From an uncultured Syntrophobacterales bacterium (GTDB lineage: Bacteria > Desulfobacterota > Syntrophia > Syntrophales > UBA5619), in NCBI GenBank assembly GCA_903928915.1, contig CAIYSL010000087.1, positions 1 to 64,000 on the forward strand: 64,000 nt of DNA. The letters run 5' to 3'. Shown piece after piece: positions 28,393-37,870 of the stretch. The position numbers and the translations under genes were made by a program. Position 1 is the stretch's first letter, and each line of letters opens with the position of its first letter. The notes under the pieces are model-generated. The model saw only the letters and a list, made by a program, of their open reading frames with translations. It was not told the DNA's origin and ran no database searches.

Positions 28393-29865
28393 TCAGGCGC
28401 CCAGCGGCAGGAAGAGCGTGAAGGTCGAGCCGGCTCCTTCGGTGCTGGAGACTTCCACCCGGCCGGAGGCGCGTTCCACCAGCCGTCTGACGATGGCGAG
28501 GCCCAGGCCGTTTCCTTCGATCTCCCGGGTTTCCGGGCGCTTCTCCCGGAAGAACTCGTCGAAGACATGCGGGAGATTCTGCGCCCTGATCCCGAGGCCC
28601 GTATCGGACACGTCGATTCGCGCCTCGCCGCCCGCACGGGAAACGCGGACCCCCAGCTCACCTCCTTCACGGTTGTACTTGACCGCATTGCCGATCAGGT
28701 TCGTCAGCATGATCCGGAGATCCTCGGCGCCGACGCAGACCCCGGGGAGGTCGGGTTCTACTGTCGCAGCGAACGTGAGGCTGCGTGCCTGCACCCGTTC
28801 GCGGTAGAGCTCTCCGACCTCGTTCAGGACGGGAGTCGGATCGATCGGTCTTGTGGACGCGCCGCCGCGCTTCTCCATCTCGATCCGGGAAAGGGAGAGC
28901 AGGTTTCCGATCAGTTCCACCATGCCGTCCAGCCGTTTCTCCGCCCGATCCAGGAGGGGGAGGTATGCGTCGAGGCTGCCCCCCAGACTCCTGTCAAGGG
29001 CCACTTCCAGGATCCCCTTGATGGCTCCCAGGGGGGAGCGGAATTCGTGGATCATGGTGCGGATGAAGCGCGACTTTTCCAGGGCCAGCCGCCGGATCTC
29101 GGAGATGTCCGAGATGGTGAGGATATGACCCAGAAGATCGCGCTTTGCCGAGTGGAAGGGCGAGAGGCTGACCATGTACTGGCGCTCCCCGATTTCCATG
29201 TCGAACAGGGTCCGACCCGGCGCAGGCGTGGCAAGCGCGTCGCGTACCGGGGTAAAGCGCTCGCCGCTCAGGATCGCCTCGGCCGGCTGTCTGAGGAGCC
29301 GGCCCTCTTCGCTGTCGAGCAGGGAGGCCATGGCCCGGTTGACCAGCGCGACCTCTCCGGACCGGTTGACGACGAGGACCGCGTCCCGGAGGTTCTCCAC
29401 GAGCGAATGGGTCTGGCTCTTCTCCGAGGCGAGCTCCAGGAGGCTCGCCTCGTGGGCGAGCTTCAGCTCTTCGGCCTCCTGTCTGACCGCCTTGTGGCGC
29501 AGCAGCGTTTCGACGACCCCGATGAGGTCCTCCGGAGAGAAGGGCTTGGGGAGGAAGAAATCGACCCCTTGCCGCGTCGCGGAGATGGCAGTCTCGATGT
29601 TGGCATAGGCCGTGATCATGCAGGTCATCACGTCGAACTCGCGCGACCGGATCGCCTGCAGGAGTGTGAGGCCGTCGATGTCGGGGAGCCGGTAATCGAT
29701 CAGGACGAGATCGAAGGGGCGCCGTTCCAGCGCGGCCAGGGCATCCCGCCCCGTTTGCGCCTCCTCCACGGCGTATCCTTCGAGCTCGAGGAGCTGGTGG
29801 ACTCCGGTTCGTATCCCGTATTCATCGTCAACGACGAGAATCCTGCCCTTCTTGCCTACGCTCAT
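28393..29865 (-). CDS. REC-PAS-histidine kinase
   Basis: 490 residues: receiver domain (about 8-122; phospho-acceptor Asp in VLIDYRLPDIDG, Lys in FFLPKPFSP), a coiled linker, a PAS domain (about 150-265), a HisKA region with the H-box FIRTMIHEFRSPLGAIKG, and a HATPase with N-box IMLTNLIGNAVKYNREG and G-boxes DVSDTGLGIR and GNGLGLAIV. It is soluble, so input comes through the receiver or PAS. As last gene in the hydrogenase operon, 12 bases after a stand-alone receiver, it probably relays phosphate from the hydrogenase-like kinase. Its own target is not in the cluster. Confidence 0.88.
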   Translation of the reverse strand: MSVGKKGRILVVDDEYGIRTGVHQLLELEGYAVEEAQTGRDALAALERRPFDLVLIDYRLPDIDGLTLLQAIRSREFDVMTCMITAYANIETAISATRQGVDFFLPKPFSPEDLIGVVETLLRHKAVRQEAEELKLAHEASLLELASEKSQTHSLVENLRDAVLVVNRSGEVALVNRAMASLLDSEEGRLLRQPAEAILSGERFTPVRDALATPAPGRTLFDMEIGERQYMVSLSPFHSAKRDLLGHILTISDISEIRRLALEKSRFIRTMIHEFRSPLGAIKGILEVALDRSLGGSLDAYLPLLDRAEKRLDGMVELIGNLLSLSRIEMEKRGGASTRPIDPTPVLNEVGELYRERVQARSLTFAATVEPDLPGVCVGAEDLRIMLTNLIGNAVKYNREGGELGVRVSRAGGEARIDVSDTGLGIRAQNLPHVFDEFFREKRPETREIEGNGLGLAIVRRLVERASGRVEVSSTEGAGSTFTLFLPLGA

Positions 29866-29877
29866 TGCTGCATCCTG

Positions 29878-30282
29878 CTACCTTGCGGCGCCCGTCTTCT
29901 CTTCGATCACTTTGAGGAGCTGCCTTCCGGTGATCGGCTTGTCCAGAAAGGCATCGAGCTGGGACCATCGCCTGAGCCCCTCCGCCTCACCGTCGAATCG
30001 TTGCCCCGTGGCCGTTGCGACCCCGGAAAGCATCACCAGCGGGACCTCCTTCAGCCGTTCGTTTTTCCGGATCTGATGGCTCAGCCGGAATCCGGAGTCG
30101 AAGTGCTCCATCATCAGGTCGAGGATCATGATGTCGGGTACCTCCTGCTCCAGCAGCCGCAATGCCTCCTCCCCGCTCGCAGCGGTCAGGACATCGTATC
30201 CGCGGCTCCGGAAATAGATCGACTGGCTTGCGAGAAAATCCCTGTCATCATCCACGAACAGAATCCTTTTTTGCGCGTTCAT
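29878..30282 (-). CDS. Stand-alone response regulator (receiver only)
   Basis: 134 residues: ILFVDDDRDF acidic pocket, phosphorylation Asp in IMILDLMMEHFDSG, Thr/Ser switch in VMLSGVAT and Lys in FLDKPI. No output domain. Residues FDSGFRL and GQRFDGEAEGLRRWSQLDAF form an insert also seen in the receiver at the head of this operon. Start ATG 30282 overlaps the stop of the hydrogenase-like kinase by four bases (ATGA), so it is most likely the direct partner of that kinase. Confidence 0.85.
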   Translation of the reverse strand: MNAQKRILFVDDDRDFLASQSIYFRSRGYDVLTAASGEEALRLLEQEVPDIMILDLMMEHFDSGFRLSHQIRKNERLKEVPLVMLSGVATATGQRFDGEAEGLRRWSQLDAFLDKPITGRQLLKVIEEKTGAAR

Positions 30283-32309
30283 GAAAACATGCTCCTTCCT
30301 GCCATCGCCTGGGTCTTGGGCAGTTCGATATGGAATGTGGTCCCCGATCCGACGATTGAGTCGAACCAGATCGATCCGCGGTGCATCTTCACGATGCCGT
30401 AGCAGATGGGGAGGCCCAGGCCGACCCCTTTCCCGATGCTCTTGGTGGTGAAAAACGGCTGGAAGACCCGTTCCCGGTCCTCCACCGGAATCCCGCACCC
30501 CTGGTCCGCGACCGAGATATGAACCCGGCCGTTGTCTGCAAGCTCCTCGGCCTTTACCCGGACCTGGCCGCCCGTACCTTCCATGGCCTCGACGGCGTTC
30601 TTGACCAGGTTCACCAGCACCTGCGTCATCTGATCGCGGTCGATGTCGGCCGCGGCATCCGGTGTCTGATCCTCGCAGAGCAGCACGACACCCTTTTCCT
30701 CAAGCCGGGAGGCCTGGAAGGAGGTTGCCAGGATGTGGCGCAGCAGCTCGCCCACGTTCACCGGCTCCATCCGGACCCGGTTCTGGCGGGCAAAGTCGAG
30801 GAGTCCGCCGACGATCTTCTTACACCGCTTCGCCTCCTCCACCAGCAGGTTCAGGTCGTGGCTCAGGTCGGTCCGGTCCGTGATCTTGCGCTGCAGCAGA
30901 TTGGTGTACAGGAGGATCGTTCCCAGCGGGTTGTTCAGTTCGTGGGCGACACCCGCCGCGAGCTGCCCCATGGAAGCGAGTTTCTCGGTATTGATCAAGT
31001 GGCGGTGCACCTGCCGTATCTCCTGCCAGGGGATCTGCAACTCGTTGCAGACCCGTTCGGCCTGGTCGATCATGAAGGGCAGGCACATGGCCTCTTCCGC
31101 TAGTCCGTGGTGGACCGCGACCGCCTTGGTCCGGCACGTGTCATAGCCGCAGGCTTTGCAGTTCAGCTCGTCTCCGGGAAGGAATTTGTTGGTCCGGGCA
31201 AGGATCGCCCGGATCTCCTGTTCGGTCGGCTCCTGCAGGCGATGATCGTCGGGGATGAACTCCCGGTTCAGATTGTACCGGGAATGAGGCGGCTCAACCA
31301 GCGGTTCCGAACCTTCCCGGCCTGTCGCGGCGGGGTGCCGCCGGCGATCATTCACGTACGTGCGGACGAAGTCCTTCCGGTTGTGACGATCGCCCCGCTT
31401 GCTCATTCCCGGCCCGTCGTGGCATCCCTGGCACATCAGGGGGTCGATCAGGAACGGTTCGATCTCCCCGCGCGCGGCGGCGCCGAGGACATCGGTCACC
31501 TCCTGCTGCCCGCTGATGGTCACGACGGTCGGGTCCAGCAGGTCCCCCTCCAGCCGGGCGCTCTTGAGAAGCCCGCCGCTCAACGGGAAGGCCCGGCCCA
31601 TGCCCGCCATGGGCGGGTCGAAGGGACGCGGTTCGGCCTGTAAAACGGCGATGTTCTTCTGGCTGAGGAGCGCCTTCATCTCCTTGAAGGTGATGACCTC
31701 GTCGATTACGGTCGGGCAGGAGTGATCCCGGGCCTCCAGCTTCTTGGCGATGCAGGGGCCGATGAACACGCAGTTCATCTCGCCGGGGTACGCCGCCCGG
31801 ACGGCCAGTGCCGTCGCGATCATCGGCGATACGACCGGGATCAGTCGCTCGGTAAGGCCCGGCTGGTACTTGCGGACGTATTCGATGACGGCAGGGCAGG
31901 ATGAGGCGATCCAGGGCCCTGCCCGGTGTGACGCCAGGAACTCCCGATAGGCCTCGCTGACCAGATCGGCGCCGGCGGCGACCTCCACCACGTACCGAAA
32001 CCCGGCGTATTTCAGCGCCCCGGCGATCCGCTCTGGCTCCAGGTCGGGAAACTCCGCCGGAAACGAAGGGGCCAGGAGCGCTGCCGCCGGTTTATTCGCT
32101 CCCAGGATCTCCTCGGTGCGCTCCAGGCCGCTCGCGTAGGTCTTGGCGTTCTGCGAACAGACCATCGTGCAGTTGCCGCAGGCGATGCAGCGGTCCGAAA
32201 CGACCGAGGCCTGCCCGTCGACGATTTTCACCGCCTTGACCGGACAGTCTCGGACGCAGGTGAAGCAGCGCCGGCAGTTTTGCCTGATGGTCTGAATCGC
32301 TTCGAACAT
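30279..32309 (-). CDS. Sensory [FeFe]-hydrogenase-like domain fused to histidine kinase
   Basis: 676 residues. Residues 1-60 hold two [4Fe-4S] ferredoxin motifs (Cys 12, 15, 18, 22 and 41, 44, 47, 51). Residues about 75-330 are an iron-hydrogenase large-subunit-like domain whose three cluster motifs read [24 protein letters not shown] and [10 protein letters not shown]. The Cys used for proton transfer in catalytic enzymes is Ser here (SSCP), while the cluster ligands appear kept. A further four-Cys element ([12 protein letters not shown] ... MCLPF) precedes a HisKA/HATPase kinase with H-box [11 protein letters not shown] and G-box KGVGLGLPI. There are no membrane segments. It lies directly downstream of the hydrogenase genes. 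A redox or H2 sensor is inferred from relatives of the HydS/HfsB type. Confidence 0.88.
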
Positions 32310-32365: not shown

Positions 32366-34066
32366 CTATCCCTTTCTCCGATCCAGGTAGCTTCGGTGGA
32401 GGAGATGGTGGCTCATTGCTCCCAAGGGTTGATCCAGAAGGTTCTTGTACAGGCTCTTGACCTGCTCATTGTCGTGGGAGAGGCGGCTCGCGGATTTCCG
32501 GTCCACCTCATAGAGCCTGTGGAGTCGCTTCTTTATGGCCTCTCTGTCCGTATCGTAGGGCTGACCGCCGCCGCCCACGCATCCTCCCGGGCAGGTCATC
32601 ACCTCGACGAAATGGAGGGGGGAGGTCTTCTGGGCAACCGAATGGAGGATGCTCTTAACCTCCCCGAGGCCGTTGACGACGGCGAAGTTCAGCTGCGTTC
32701 CGGCGACGTCCAGGGAAAACACCTTGACCTGGTCCAGCCCTCGCGCATCGCTTACCTTGGGGCCGCCCTTGAGTTCTTCACCGGTGATCAGCCTGTGTGC
32801 GGTCCGGATGGCCGCCTCCATGACGCCGCCGGTGCCGCCGAAAATCCGGCCGGCGCCGGTCGCCTCGGCAAAGGGTACATCCAGAGGGGCCCGTGGGCCC
32901 TTGGGGGTGAACTGCATGCCGAAACGGCGCAGGAGCTGATCCACCTCGCGGGTGGTCAGGACGGCATCGATGTCCCCCAAGTCCTGGGCCTCGTATTTCT
33001 TGGCTGTGCAGGGCATGATCGAGACGGAGTAGATACGCCGCCCCTTGGTGTCAAACTGCTTCGGATAGCACTCCTTGATCAGGGCGCCCATCATCTGCTG
33101 GGGCGACTTGCAGGTGGACAGATAGGGGATCATCTCCGGCCTGTGCACCTCGACGTATCTGACCCAGCCCGGCGAGCAACTGGTGAACATGGGGAGCGCT
33201 CCTCCGTTCTTCACGCGATGAAGGAGTTCCGAGACCTCTTCCATGATGGTAAGGTCCGCCGTGAACGAGGTGTCGAAGACGGCCTCGAATCCGATCTGTC
33301 TGAGCGCCCCGGAAAGGGTTTCGAGCATTTCGGTTATGGAGGAGATCTCGGCCGCATCCATCAGTGTCGCCGGCACGGCGGGTGCCACCTGCGCGACAAC
33401 CATGACGTCGGGGTCTGCCAGGGCCCGGATGACATCCTCTCCCTGGCTCTTCTCCGTGAGAGCGCCCGTGGGGCATGCCCGGATGCACTGGCCGCAGAAG
33501 ATACAGCCGGAAACGTTGAGGCCCGTGTAGAAGGCCGGACTGATCCGGGTTTCGAAACCCCGGCCGGTAAAATCAATGGCCCCGACCCCCTGGACGCTGT
33601 GGCATACCGCAACGCAGCGTCCGCATAGGATGCACTTGTTCGGTTCCCGGATGACGGACGGCGAAGAGACGTCGAGGGGGTGCGATTTTTTCAGGCCCGC
33701 GTATCTCCTGCCCCGGATACCCAGGTCCGCGGCAAGCCGCGCGAGTTCGCAGTCGCCGCTGCGCGGACAGAAGAGACAGTCATCGGGGTGGCTGGCCAGG
33801 AGGAGCTCCACGATCGTGCGCCGCGCCCGCTGGATGCGGGGGGTGTGCGTCCGCACCACCATGCCGTCCCGCGCCGGGAGGGTGCAGCTGGTCTGGAGCC
33901 GTGGTGTGCCCTCCACTTCAACCATGCAGATACGGCAGGCGGCCTGGGGGGAGGGGGAGCCTGCAAAGGCACAGAGGTGCGGTATCGCGATGCCGGCCCG
34001 CAGAGCGGCCTGCAGGACCGTCTCGTCCGGTACCCATTCGATCTCTCTTTCATTGATGGTAATCAT
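32366..34066 (-). CDS. hndD: NAD-linked [FeFe] hydrogenase catalytic subunit (HydA/HndD type, group A)
   Basis: 566 residues. N-terminal [2Fe-2S] domain (CAFAGSP ... CRICMVEV), His-Cys [4Fe-4S] motif (HPDDCLFCPRSGDC), two [4Fe-4S] motifs (CILCGRCVAVC; CIFCGQCIRACP), then the H-cluster domain. Its motifs are FTSCSPGW, MPCTAKKYE and EVMTCPGGCVGGGGQP, and a C-terminal small-subunit-like extension follows. TSCSP in place of TSCCP is, as I recall, usual for HndD-type enzymes, which are active. It makes or consumes H2, probably by electron bifurcation with NADH and ferredoxin. ATG 34066 is chosen because GGAAGAA lies six bases upstream; longer in-frame sequence overlaps the previous gene. No maturases (HydEFG) are in the window. 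Confidence 0.93.
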   Translation of the reverse strand: MITINEREIEWVPDETVLQAALRAGIAIPHLCAFAGSPSPQAACRICMVEVEGTPRLQTSCTLPARDGMVVRTHTPRIQRARRTIVELLLASHPDDCLFCPRSGDCELARLAADLGIRGRRYAGLKKSHPLDVSSPSVIREPNKCILCGRCVAVCHSVQGVGAIDFTGRGFETRISPAFYTGLNVSGCIFCGQCIRACPTGALTEKSQGEDVIRALADPDVMVVAQVAPAVPATLMDAAEISSITEMLETLSGALRQIGFEAVFDTSFTADLTIMEEVSELLHRVKNGGALPMFTSCSPGWVRYVEVHRPEMIPYLSTCKSPQQMMGALIKECYPKQFDTKGRRIYSVSIMPCTAKKYEAQDLGDIDAVLTTREVDQLLRRFGMQFTPKGPRAPLDVPFAEATGAGRIFGGTGGVMEAAIRTAHRLITGEELKGGPKVSDARGLDQVKVFSLDVAGTQLNFAVVNGLGEVKSILHSVAQKTSPLHFVEVMTCPGGCVGGGGQPYDTDREAIKKRLHRLYEVDRKSASRLSHDNEQVKSLYKNLLDQPLGAMSHHLLHRSYLDRRKG

Positions 34067-34115: not shown

Positions 34116-36152
34116 CTATGCCGACTCGGCGCAACCGAGGCCCTGCGCAGGCGCCTCCGGAACGGCCTCGAAGATCGCCTTGCTCGGGCATGCTTCGGCG
34201 CAGGCGCCGCAGCCGATGCAGCGATCCTCAAGGATGTAGTGGGCCTGTTTTCGCTCGCCGATGATAGCGTTGCCCGGGCACTTCTTCTTGCAGACCGTAC
34301 AGCCGATGCAGAGCGTCGTGTCGACGGAAAAGGTCTTGAGGCCCCGGCAGGCGCCCGCCGGGCAGCGGTTTTCCAGGATGTGGGCTTCGTACTCATCCCG
34401 GAAAAACCTGAGGGTGCTCAGCACCGGGTTGGCCGCGGTCTGGCCGAGGCCGCACAGGGAGGTTTCCCTGACCGTCTGGGCAAGCTCCTCGAGGTGGAGT
34501 ATCCCCCGGAACCGCTCCAGCCGACGCAGTTCGTCTCCGACAGGCTTCTCGGTGAAACTGGCGAGGATCTCATGCATCCGGATGGTCCCTTCCCGGCAGG
34601 GGGTACATTTGCCGCAGGATTCGTTCCGGATGAACTCCATGAAGAATTTGGCCACGTCGACCATGCAGGATCGCTCGTCCATGACCACCATGCCACCGGA
34701 CCCCATGATCGCTCCGAGCTGCTGAAGTGACAGGTAGTCCACGGCTACGTCCAGTCTTTCCTCGGGGATGCAGCCGCCGCTCGGTCCGCCGATCTGGACG
34801 GCTTTGATCCGGTGTCCCGGAAGCGCCCCGCCGCCGATATCGTCGATGATCTCCCGAAGCGGGATGCCGATCGGCACCTCCACCAGGCCGGTGTTCCGGA
34901 TCGCTCCGCTCAGGGCGAACACCTTAGTCCCCGCGCTCGACCCGGCCGAGAGCCCCTTGAACCAGTCCGCCCCGCCGGCCAGGATCAAGGGAACGTTGGC
35001 CAGGGTCTCCACGTTGTTGAGGACCGTGGGCTTCCCGTGCAGCCCGCTGACTGCGGGGTAGGGCGGCCGGGGCCGGGGCATCCCCCTGCCGCCCTCGATG
35101 CTGGCGAGGATCGCCGTCTCTTCCCCGCAGACGAAGGCCCCGGCACCCTGCTTGATGGTCACGTCGAAGGAAAAGAGGCTGTCGAGGATGTTGTGTCCCA
35201 GAAGGCCCGCGTGCCGGCACTGGTCTATCGCGTCCCGCAACCGGTCGAGGGCCAGTGGATACTCGGCCCGGCAGTAGATGTACCCTTTGGAGGCCCCGAC
35301 GGCGTAAGCGGCGATCAGGAGCCCTTCGAGTACGCGGAAGGGGTCCCCCTCCAGGACCGCCCGGTCCATGAAGGCCCCGGGGTCGCCCTCATCGGCGTTG
35401 CAGATCACGTACTTCTCGGCGCTGGCCGTGTCGAGGGCGACCCGCCACTTCTGGCCGGTCATAAAACCGGCGCCGCCCCTGCCGCGCAGGCCCGATGCCT
35501 GGACCACGTCGCAGACTTCGGCCGGCGTCATGGTGTGCAGCGCCCGGCTGGCGGCCCGAAAGGCCCCGGTTGCGAGCGCTGCGTCGAGCGAAGACGGATC
35601 GATGCGGCCGCAGTTTTCGAGGACCACCTTGTTCTGGCGCTTGAAAAACGGGATATCCGCCAGCAGCGGGACCTCGGCGAAGGTACCGTCGCCATCGTCC
35701 CACCGTCCCAGGAGGAAACGGTTTTTCAGGTTTTCCCGGAGAAAGACCTCCGCGAGAAGTTCGTCCACATTGTCGGGCGTCACATCGCAGTAGGACAGGC
35801 GGGGAGAAGTGCCGGTCAGGAGGTCGATGAACACCTCCCGCTGACAGTATCCCGCACAGCCGACTTCGATCAGGCCGGCGTCGATACGGTTGGTCCCGAA
35901 AAACGAGCGGATATGGTCCTTGATCCGAGACGCCCCGTTGGCCATCCCGCAAGTCCCGGCGCCGATGAACAGAACCGTCCCCTCTCCCCCCCGGCGGGCG
36001 ACGGCAAGCCGACCGGCCCGCACTGTCCGGCACCTATCGTCGTCGTGGCAGAGGGGGCCTCGCGTCAGGCATTCGATGAGCTTGCGGCAGGGATTGGCCG
36101 CCGTATGCCAGCAGTGGCCGCAGCAGGGCGCTGCTAATTGTACCGGTTTCAT
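34116..36152 (-). CDS. hndC: NuoF-like hydrogenase subunit with FMN/NADH site (HydB/HndC type)
   Basis: 678 residues. An unusual Cys-rich head (residues 1-45, eight Cys including PCCGHCWH and PLCHDDDRC) is followed by a thioredoxin-like [2Fe-2S] domain (GTCGMANGA ... VGCAGYCQREV). The NuoF core comes next: SGLRGRGGAGFMTGQKW (NADH/FMN), CNADEGDPGAFMDR and ESCGKCTPCREG (N3-type [4Fe-4S]). Two C-terminal [4Fe-4S] motifs close the protein (CIGCTVCKKKCP; CIGCGACAEACP). It is the NAD(P)-reactive subunit and presumed bifurcation site of HydABC-type enzymes. It overlaps the NuoE-like gene by four bases and precedes the catalytic subunit by 49 bases. Confidence 0.93.
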   Translation of the reverse strand: MKPVQLAAPCCGHCWHTAANPCRKLIECLTRGPLCHDDDRCRTVRAGRLAVARRGGEGTVLFIGAGTCGMANGASRIKDHIRSFFGTNRIDAGLIEVGCAGYCQREVFIDLLTGTSPRLSYCDVTPDNVDELLAEVFLRENLKNRFLLGRWDDGDGTFAEVPLLADIPFFKRQNKVVLENCGRIDPSSLDAALATGAFRAASRALHTMTPAEVCDVVQASGLRGRGGAGFMTGQKWRVALDTASAEKYVICNADEGDPGAFMDRAVLEGDPFRVLEGLLIAAYAVGASKGYIYCRAEYPLALDRLRDAIDQCRHAGLLGHNILDSLFSFDVTIKQGAGAFVCGEETAILASIEGGRGMPRPRPPYPAVSGLHGKPTVLNNVETLANVPLILAGGADWFKGLSAGSSAGTKVFALSGAIRNTGLVEVPIGIPLREIIDDIGGGALPGHRIKAVQIGGPSGGCIPEERLDVAVDYLSLQQLGAIMGSGGMVVMDERSCMVDVAKFFMEFIRNESCGKCTPCREGTIRMHEILASFTEKPVGDELRRLERFRGILHLEELAQTVRETSLCGLGQTAANPVLSTLRFFRDEYEAHILENRCPAGACRGLKTFSVDTTLCIGCTVCKKKCPGNAIIGERKQAHYILEDRCIGCGACAEACPSKAIFEAVPEAPAQGLGCAESA

Positions 36153-36607
36153 TCGTCACCCCCGATTTCATCGATCAGCGCGTCCAGTTTCTGGATGGTC
36201 AGGTGTCCGTGGAACTCCCCGTCCAGCTTGACGACCGGGGCGATGGAGCAGGCCCCCAGGCAGGCAACCGTAACGACGGTGAACTTCCCGTCGGGCGAGT
36301 TCCCGTCGCTTGTCAGCTTGAGGCGGCGCTTGAGGTGATCGGCGATGGAGAGGCTGCCCTTCACATGGCACGCCGTACCGCGGCAGACCTGAATGACGTG
36401 CTCGCCGAGCGGGGCGAACCGAAACTGCCGGTAAAAGGTCGCCACACCGTACACCCGGCTCACCGGGACGCCGATCGCGGCCGATATCTCTTCCATCGAT
36501 CCGTCGGAGAGGTAGCCGCTTTCGGCCTGTACCTCCTGGAGGACCGGGATGAGGCTGTCCATGGTGAGCGGTCCGTGGCCGGTGACGACTTCTGCAACGC
36601 TGCGCAT
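36149..36607 (-). CDS. hndA: NuoE-like [2Fe-2S] hydrogenase subunit (HydC/HndA type)
   Basis: 152 residues. The four-Cys [2Fe-2S] site is visible as VCRGTACHVKG and ACLGACSIAPVV, and the helical N-terminus (DSLIPVLQEVQAESGYLS, VYGVATFYRQF) is standard NuoE. It transfers electrons between the NuoF-like subunit and the rest of the trimeric hydrogenase. It is second in the operon, 22 bases after the leading response regulator, with its stop overlapping the NuoF-like start (ATGA). Confidence 0.93.
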   Translation of the reverse strand: MRSVAEVVTGHGPLTMDSLIPVLQEVQAESGYLSDGSMEEISAAIGVPVSRVYGVATFYRQFRFAPLGEHVIQVCRGTACHVKGSLSIADHLKRRLKLTSDGNSPDGKFTVVTVACLGACSIAPVVKLDGEFHGHLTIQKLDALIDEIGGDE

Positions 36608-36629: not shown

Positions 36630-37052
36630 TCAGTTCGCTGCTGCCGCTGCGGCCCCGCCGAGGATCCGGTCGATGGTCTTGGCCAGCTCCTTGAGGTCGA
36701 TCGGCTTCTCGAGGTACACGTCGGCAGGCCACTCCTGCCCCATGATGAATTGGAAATTTTCCATCTTCTCGCTGAGGTGTTGGGTGAAACCCGATACGAT
36801 GACGATCGGGACCCTCAGCCCGGCAGTATCCTGACGCAGCTCATAGGCGAGGTTGAACCCCTCGGCGTCGGTATCCATCATGACGTCGAGGACGATGAGG
36901 TCCGGTTTGCCCGCGCGGATCTTCCCCAGCCCCTCCGATCCATTGAAGGCCGTGTCCACCCTATATCCGCGTCCCTCCAGGAATGTCTTGGTGGAGTGAA
37001 CGAAGTCCCTGTCGTCGTCGATGAGCAGAATGTTCCTGTGTTCCATAGCCAT
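36630..37052 (-). CDS. Stand-alone response regulator heading the hydrogenase operon
   Basis: 140 residues: acidic pocket ILLIDDDRDF, phospho-Asp in LIVLDVMMDTDAEG, switch residue in VIVSGFTQ and Lys in YLEKPI. No output domain; the tail is Ala-rich. It resembles the receiver at 29878-30282 (both have a DRDF opening, a MM-x(2,3)-D/E-x-GF stretch after the phospho-Asp and an insert before the conserved Lys), so one is probably a duplicate of the other. It is first in the operon behind a Rex operator, which makes a regulator the first protein made when Rex releases DNA. Confidence 0.85.
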   Translation of the reverse strand: MAMEHRNILLIDDDRDFVHSTKTFLEGRGYRVDTAFNGSEGLGKIRAGKPDLIVLDVMMDTDAEGFNLAYELRQDTAGLRVPIVIVSGFTQHLSEKMENFQFIMGQEWPADVYLEKPIDLKELAKTIDRILGGAAAAAAN

Positions 37053-37109: not shown

Positions 37110-37127
37110 CAGTGAAATAATTCACAA
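37110..37127 (-). promoter_or_regulatory. Rex operator in front of the hydrogenase operon
   Basis: Read on the minus strand, TTGTGAATTATTTCACTG matches the Rex consensus TTGTGAA-W4-TTCACAA with only the last bases differing. It is followed at once by a TATATAAAT box, so bound Rex would cover the promoter. The operon's first start codon lies 58 bases away. Confidence 0.8.
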
Positions 37128-37147: not shown

Positions 37148-37807
37148 TCAGATCTCGAACTCCAGCGCCGTCCCATACCTGTTTAAAAAGGAGAGCTTTT
37201 CCATCTTTGCGGAGAAATCCACGTTTTCCACGTTCATCCCTGCGACGGCGTGGATTTGCCGGGGGACGAAGTTAAGAATCGACCGGATGCCGGCCCTCCC
37301 GAGCCGGTCGACCAGGCTCTGGAGATTCTGCGCTCCGCAGGCAAGGATCGCCATGGCGACACCGAAGTCCGGCAGGACCGCCTCCAGGTCCTGGATGTGA
37401 TGGCAGCGCCGGCCGGCAAAGACCCTCCCGATCTTTTCGGCATCGATGTCGAAAACCACCGCGATATGAAATCCCCGCTCCTCGAATCCCCGATAGAACA
37501 GCAGCGCACGGCCGAGATTCCCGGCCCCGATCAGGGCCACGTTCTGGAGGGTATCGGTGCCGAAGAGGCGGCTTATCGTGAGGATCAGCTGGTAAACGGG
37601 GTATCCCTTGGAGATGTTGCCGAAGGAGCCGAAGGAGGCAAGGTCCCTTCTCAGCTGGGCCGGGCTGACGCGGACCAGCTCGGCGAGCTGGTGGGAGTAG
37701 ACGTTTGCCACCCCGTCCCGATGCAGGTCTTCGAGGACCTTTCGGTAGAGGCTCATCCGTTCAACGGTCTGCAGCGATATCTTTTTCCCCGATTTTTCCC
37801 GTGCCAT
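37148..37807 (-). CDS. rex: Redox-sensing transcriptional repressor Rex
   Basis: 219 residues. N-terminal winged helix (SLQTVERMSLYRKVLEDL, VYSHQLAELVRVSPAQLRRDLASFGSFG) and a Rossmann NAD(H) domain with ALIGAGNLGRALL; the C-terminal helix used for domain swapping is present. Rex leaves DNA when NADH/NAD+ rises. ATG 37807 (MAREKSGKK) is preferred over ATG 37828 because AAAGAG sits just upstream. Operators lie both before rex (37853-37870) and between rex and the hydrogenase operon (37110-37127), so Rex should control itself and the hydrogenase. Confidence 0.95.
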   Translation of the reverse strand: MAREKSGKKISLQTVERMSLYRKVLEDLHRDGVANVYSHQLAELVRVSPAQLRRDLASFGSFGNISKGYPVYQLILTISRLFGTDTLQNVALIGAGNLGRALLFYRGFEERGFHIAVVFDIDAEKIGRVFAGRRCHHIQDLEAVLPDFGVAMAILACGAQNLQSLVDRLGRAGIRSILNFVPRQIHAVAGMNVENVDFSAKMEKLSFLNRYGTALEFEI

Positions 37808-37852
37808 CTCTTTCCCGCGTTCCTGCAAGGGGTAACGGATGCCGTCGATGCG

Positions 37853-37870
37853 CTGTGATTATATTCACAG
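37853..37870 (-). promoter_or_regulatory. Rex operator of the rex promoter
   Basis: CTGTGATTATATTCACAG is an 18-base near-perfect dyad close to the Rex consensus. It covers the -10 box of the rex promoter (37858-37863), the expected place for autorepression. Confidence 0.8.

Follow-up and report, generated by a model that had tools for sequence, protein, structure and literature searches.

The bifurcating [FeFe]-hydrogenase operon in the window, i.e. the whole stretch of 64,000 nucleotides analysed here, encodes a histidine kinase whose input is itself of the [FeFe]-hydrogenase type, raising the question if this kinase senses H2 via an H-cluster of its own. H2 sensing by group C and D [FeFe]-hydrogenases is still termed putative, and a kinase in one polypeptide offers a direct assay, namely autophosphorylation under H2. 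With slightly more confidence than doubt, and judging from sequence, we take the protein to be a cytosolic HisKA-type kinase with a retired [FeFe]-hydrogenase input that would harbour a modified H-cluster and report H2 by conformational coupling. Its sensing of H2 (or redox) may be direct, though with altered chemistry.

Domain organization and conservation of the kinase

The ORF (30279-32309 including the stop codon, minus strand; coding part 30282-32309) has an ATG start and encodes 676 residues, which Pfam and comparison with orthologs identify as a histidine kinase with [FeFe]-hydrogenase-type, BfuT/HydS-like input. ORF reading and Pfam recovered all modules named in a preliminary description of this DNA (ferredoxin, H-domain, four-Cys and kinase), and hydropathy analysis revealed no transmembrane segment in the 676 residues, confirming a soluble kinase. 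The N-terminal 2x[4Fe-4S] ferredoxin module (Pfam Fer4_10; residues 9-51; 32157-32285, minus strand) contains C12, C15, C18, C22 and C41, C44, C47, C51, all eight being invariant in an alignment of 118 relatives. The H-domain (PF02906, Fe_hyd_lg_C; residues 75-300; 31410-32087, minus strand) is supported by Pfam (E 5e-43), alignments and an AF2 model, and carries the motifs A80-P81-S82, L1 ASSCP with C138 and L2 GPCIAKKLE with C186, as well as L3, C293-Q-G-C296 (31422-31433, minus strand), where sequence and alignments reveal CxxC in place of CxxxC. A PF04060 FeS domain (residues 381-411; 31077-31169, minus strand) has the motif Cx2Cx4Cx16C, formed by C384, C387, C392 and C409, which are invariant in the alignment. 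Output is provided by HisKA (residues 447-509) and HATPase_c (557-666), together spanning residues 447-666 (30312-30971, minus strand; Pfam), with H-box, N-box and G-boxes all present and invariant among relatives (H456, N567, N571, D602-x-G604-x-G606). Pfam found no PAS domain of the M2f type in the ORF.

The AF2 model of the 430-residue input has a mean pLDDT of 90, and its best PDB matches in Foldseek are catalytic [FeFe]-hydrogenases. In the full-length model a helix of the FeS domain (410-423) has the last Cys ligand at its start, and the kinase dimerisation helix (431-475) comes after a short gap, the confidence being low at 427-457. Several features are those of group C HydS: an H-domain with N-terminal 2x[4Fe-4S] (Pfam, AF2/Foldseek), the Cx2Cx4Cx16C motif, and replacement of both the catalytic proton-transfer Cys (position 299) by Ser137 and M353 by Gly184. 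The four H-cluster ligand Cys are kept as well, yet L3, CQGC, departs from the CxxxC of group C HydS. Thus, 'ligand cysteines kept', as stated before, holds for their number (C138, C186, C293, C296), but not for their spacing. Likewise, the four-Cys motif described as an additional CXXC-type cluster does exist, but corresponds to the Cx2Cx4Cx16C domain usual in group C/D sensors (PMC8163306) and is not an extra one.

Two orthologs from the same genus are 78-79% identical to the kinase over its full length, and about 95 relatives have the whole kinase architecture, which excludes a chance arrangement. An alignment-based genome-wide search yielded 80 loci, nearly all kinase-fused, from ~18 phyla according to record titles, and a phylum survey enlarged the set of relatives beyond these 80. 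Searching plasmids gave mostly unrelated kinases plus R. albus HydS, and searching viruses three distant matches.

Ser137 had been regarded as a sign that turnover was traded for sensing. Such a trade is probable, but we rejected the Cys-to-Ser exchange as its mark: in 87 kinase members the position is occupied by T, S, P or A, and the same-genus ortholog L042 (79% identical) has Ala. TmHydS, for which an H-cluster was shown, is active with Ala at this site (PMC10055695). With a site this variable, and an active enzyme that has Ala there, Ser137 is not diagnostic.

Operon and genome context

The operon is transcribed leftwards in the order rex, REC, hydC, hydB, hydA, kinase, REC, REC-PAS-HisKA hybrid, all genes being on the minus strand and assigned by Pfam. 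Rex, an NADH-responsive repressor (37148-37828), is followed by the REC-only regulator RR2 (36630-37052), NuoE-like HydC (36149-36607), NuoF-like (FMN/NADH) HydB (34116-36152) and HydA (32366-34066; also by sequence comparison), the catalytic subunit of a bifurcating group A3-type [FeFe]-hydrogenase. A spacer of 56 nt separates the end of hydA from the kinase start. Downstream, the ATG of the REC-only response regulator RR1 (29878-30282) overlaps the kinase stop codon (ATGA), and RR1 is likely the partner of the kinase; then comes the REC-PAS-HisKA-HATPase hybrid regulator/kinase (28393-29865), whose position is conserved in relatives. A perfect σ70 promoter (12/12; 37886-37858) lies upstream of rex, and a motif scan located Rex-like palindromes in both intergenic gaps flanking rex, one overlapping the -10 element (37853-37870), the other between rex and the hydrogenase genes (37110-37127). 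These two palindromes in the window compare with 0.52 expected, at least two occurring in 7 of 100 shuffles. L1 of HydA, TSCSPGW, was considered as an abnormality and dismissed, the solved HydA 7q4v having TSCSPGW too; Ser at this site is common in group A3 (PMC11406978).

The order NuoE-NuoF-HydA-kinase-REC-hybrid recurs among relatives, often with Rex, indicating an old functional unit and not a chance fusion. HydA lies upstream of the kinase in 55 of the 70 loci with room for it, at a distance of at most 300 bp in 43 of them (median gap of these 15 bp), and of 72 relatives with enough downstream sequence, 49 have a REC gene within the next 700 bp. This tight coupling to hydA across phyla is what one would expect of a partner blind to H2 that would bind to HydABC and, through protein contacts, monitor electron flow or the assembly of the complex instead of a gas. 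We hold such a role to be improbable, as the kept ligands and the [2Fe] pocket described below would be unnecessary and some kinase members are situated away from hydA.

H-clusters bind CO, and a kinase sensing CO through its H-cluster is therefore conceivable. We rate this as very improbable because those group C/D sensors that have been characterised tolerate CO comparatively well (PMC8163306) and Pfam detected no CO-related gene among the operon neighbours scanned. Nothing in the analysis singles out CO, and the CO-responsive part of the preliminary description finds no support.

The genome that contains the window (4.3 Mb, 141 contigs) encodes four H-domain proteins and, as genome searches revealed, HydE, HydF and HydG. 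One further sensor of this genome, L008:15414-16751 on contig C28, is a separate group D-like protein of 446 residues (SACP, APCPAK, CVCGC, i.e. CxxxC) located near a second bifurcating hydrogenase.

The L3 motif is contracted in the kinase lineage

In catalytic enzymes and PAS-type HydS L3 reads CxxxC, the first Cys ligating the cubane and the second bridging to the [2Fe] unit. By contrast, 95 of 118 sensor-type relatives in the alignment have CxGC, shorter by one residue, among them all members of the kinase lineage. A simple sequence pattern called 92 of these 95 proteins kinases; the three left over include L100, which Pfam identifies as a kinase, and one protein truncated at a contig end. 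In 42 of the 95 the motif is CCxGC, which formally fits both spacings, an option that the window protein and its orthologs lack. The remaining 23 relatives have CxxxC, with PAS or σ54 output in those scanned; L3 of R. albus HydS, CNGSC, is also of this type. A survey of Bacillota found CxGC or CCxGC in 57 of 58 sensors not of the short PAS type (L229 has neither), fused to σ54, kinase or GGDEF-HD outputs, and CxxxC in the PAS-type ones. Hence, a restriction of CxGC to kinases was rejected: σ54 and GGDEF fusions from Clostridia carry it too, so that the contrast is with PAS-type HydS. When the L3 columns are left out of tree building, a single gain of CxGC and a single reversal, the latter in deltaproteobacterial σ54 proteins, account for its distribution; a second tree agrees, both being quick trees with some long branches. 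We found no mention of the contraction in the searchable literature, which takes in few subscription papers.

The contraction could keep the bridging Cys out of place, and we know of no CxGC protein in which a [2Fe] subsite has been demonstrated. If the kinase does contain an H-cluster, one held by CxxC would reveal unexpected plasticity at the bridging ligand. Bacteroidales have second copies near the kinase locus in which the first L3 Cys is lost (e.g. FYHGGC), leaving a three-Cys H-domain (L082:3-1250, L086, L109, L059, L079, L074 and L069; minus strand).

The [2Fe] pocket and maturases differ between lineages

We next compared the surroundings of the [2Fe] unit, to which P231/S232, K358 and E361 of CpI are close. 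These residues align with P81/S82, K189 and E192 of the window kinase. Across 87 kinase members, conservation is 100% for A80-P81-S82, K189 and E192 as well as for the four H-domain Cys. For S232, proximity to the [2Fe] unit in CpI is documented (PMC12138974). Consequently, the contraction of L3 by itself was rejected as a sign of H-cluster loss, the [2Fe] pocket being invariant in those CxGC proteins.

Two sister lineages lack the A-P-S/K358 signature. One comprises eight kinases (L141, L145, L147, L151, L152, L154, L156, L157) with D-P-A and either H or Q for K358 that retain all Cys and CxGC, the other eleven one-component σ54 activators (L135-L138, L142, L144, L146, L148-L150, L155) with G-C/S-S, A or G for K358, and H at position 299. 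Neither HydF nor HydG was detected above the cut-off in 15 near-complete genomes of these lineages (11 of 11 for the σ54 activators, four for the kinases: G210, G183, G155, G279), and in each of them the sensor is the sole H-domain protein, indicating that these sensors cannot carry an H-cluster made in the usual way. Judged by their residues and genomes, the σ54 activators with degenerate H-domain are FeS-only sensors made from a hydrogenase. The kinases devoid of K358 keep CxGC, which by itself is therefore no indicator of an H-cluster. The searchable literature, mostly without subscription papers, contained no mention of maturase-free sister sensors.

Among 50 genomes of pocket-keeping kinase members, for which completeness was not given, HydG exceeded the cut-off in 38, the other 12 MAGs having no such match. 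HydG presence differs between pocket-keeping and pocket-less genomes with a Fisher p of 2e-5. The co-occurrence is support and not proof, as relatedness keeps these genomes from counting as independent and as HydG is also required by the neighbouring HydA, which partly explains it. G116 has an intact pocket without HydF or HydG, its locus being at a contig edge. G110 (L134) combines an intact pocket, four H-domain proteins and HydF with no HydG match, due to either an assembly gap or a divergent HydG.

These data bear on the rival that the kinase is an FeS-only redox sensor in which C138, C186, C293 and C296 bind a [4Fe-4S] cluster without [2Fe] and which reads the redox state of ferredoxin or the cell via its ferredoxin module. 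The L3 spacing is unlike that of the H-cluster proteins compared, the sister lineages of the same fold live in genomes without HydF/HydG, so that the scaffold can persist as sensor without H-cluster, and the presence of Rex in the operon attests to the relevance of redox as a signal. Nevertheless, we regard this rival as rather unlikely, for the pocket residues lost in maturase-free lineages are invariant in the lineage of the window kinase and its own genome encodes HydE, HydF and HydG.

For the family as a whole we propose tentatively, with somewhat less than even confidence, that a CxGC contraction that evolved once defines widespread fused-output sensors (kinases, σ54 activators, diguanylate cyclases) which would use a non-canonical H-cluster for signalling and were converted to H-cluster-free FeS sensors where maturases were lost. 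The CxGC rule and the pocket-less, maturase-free sister lineages provide natural comparison proteins.

Proposed signalling mechanism

If the window kinase does sense H2 via a modified H-cluster, its H-domain would acquire, by maturation, an H-cluster whose L3 geometry is altered, and H2 binding or redox poise would shift the state of this cluster, which, in turn, may alter the way the H-domain contacts the FeS domain. This change might be passed mechanically through the FeS domain and the helix preceding the dimerisation helix to H456, from where the phosphate would be transferred to the translationally coupled REC protein as likeliest acceptor, perhaps also to the hybrid kinase. Both this signalling and Rex would tune the neighbouring bifurcating hydrogenase, with Rex placing the operon under NADH control as well. 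H2 changes the secondary structure of TamHydS without reducing its C-terminal cluster (PMC13104023). By analogy, a mechanical link appears favoured over an electrical one, so that of the two options suggested originally for the four-Cys motif the structural link is the likelier.

Comparison with known sensors

Earlier work has already described group C proteins that are fused to kinases and encoded beside A3 hydrogenases (BfuT, PMC11406978), a corresponding HydDB class (PMC5037454) and a σ54 version (PMC6615313). BfuT sub-type V (PMC11406978) is a group C3 [FeFe]-hydrogenase with His-kinase domain from Hydrogenedentota, Calditrichota and Bacteroidota; like the window kinase, it fuses the H-domain to a histidine kinase and is encoded beside a group A3 bifurcating hydrogenase, and Hydrogenedentota and Bacteroidales occur among the relatives of the window kinase, too. 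Unlike those proteins, the window member is deltaproteobacterial and its operon also contains rex and REC genes; the accessible text of PMC11406978 does not mention L3 spacing. Members of HydDB group C1, 'histidine kinase-linked (putative)', are described as possible H2 sensors that act through histidine kinases (PMC5037454), which matches the role proposed for the window kinase. In the C1 sequences of PMC11406978 H-cluster motifs are hardly found, and the best HydDB C1 match is reported there to lack a HATPase domain.

The PAS-type group C proteins TmHydS and RaHydS share 2x[4Fe-4S], L2 GPC, Cx2Cx4Cx16C and a variable position 299 with the window kinase (PMC10055695, PMC6776011), but have a PAS output, a separate SpoIIE phosphatase being located beside RaHydS, and L3 of RaHydS is CNGSC instead of CQGC. 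TamHydS (group D) has the C-terminal FeS domain in common with the kinase (PMC8163306, PMC13104023); its gene precedes those of a bifurcating hydrogenase and has a kinase-like neighbour, but the protein lacks a fused output. The Clostridial σ54 activators (Fer4/Fe_hyd_lg_C/FeS; PMC6615313, fig. 2 legend) have a CxGC input like the window kinase and differ in their σ54 AAA+/HTH output. In two further proteins, L215:202-2586 and L221:163-2592, a CxGC/CCxGC H-domain input is fused to GGDEF-HD, i.e. to c-di-GMP turnover.
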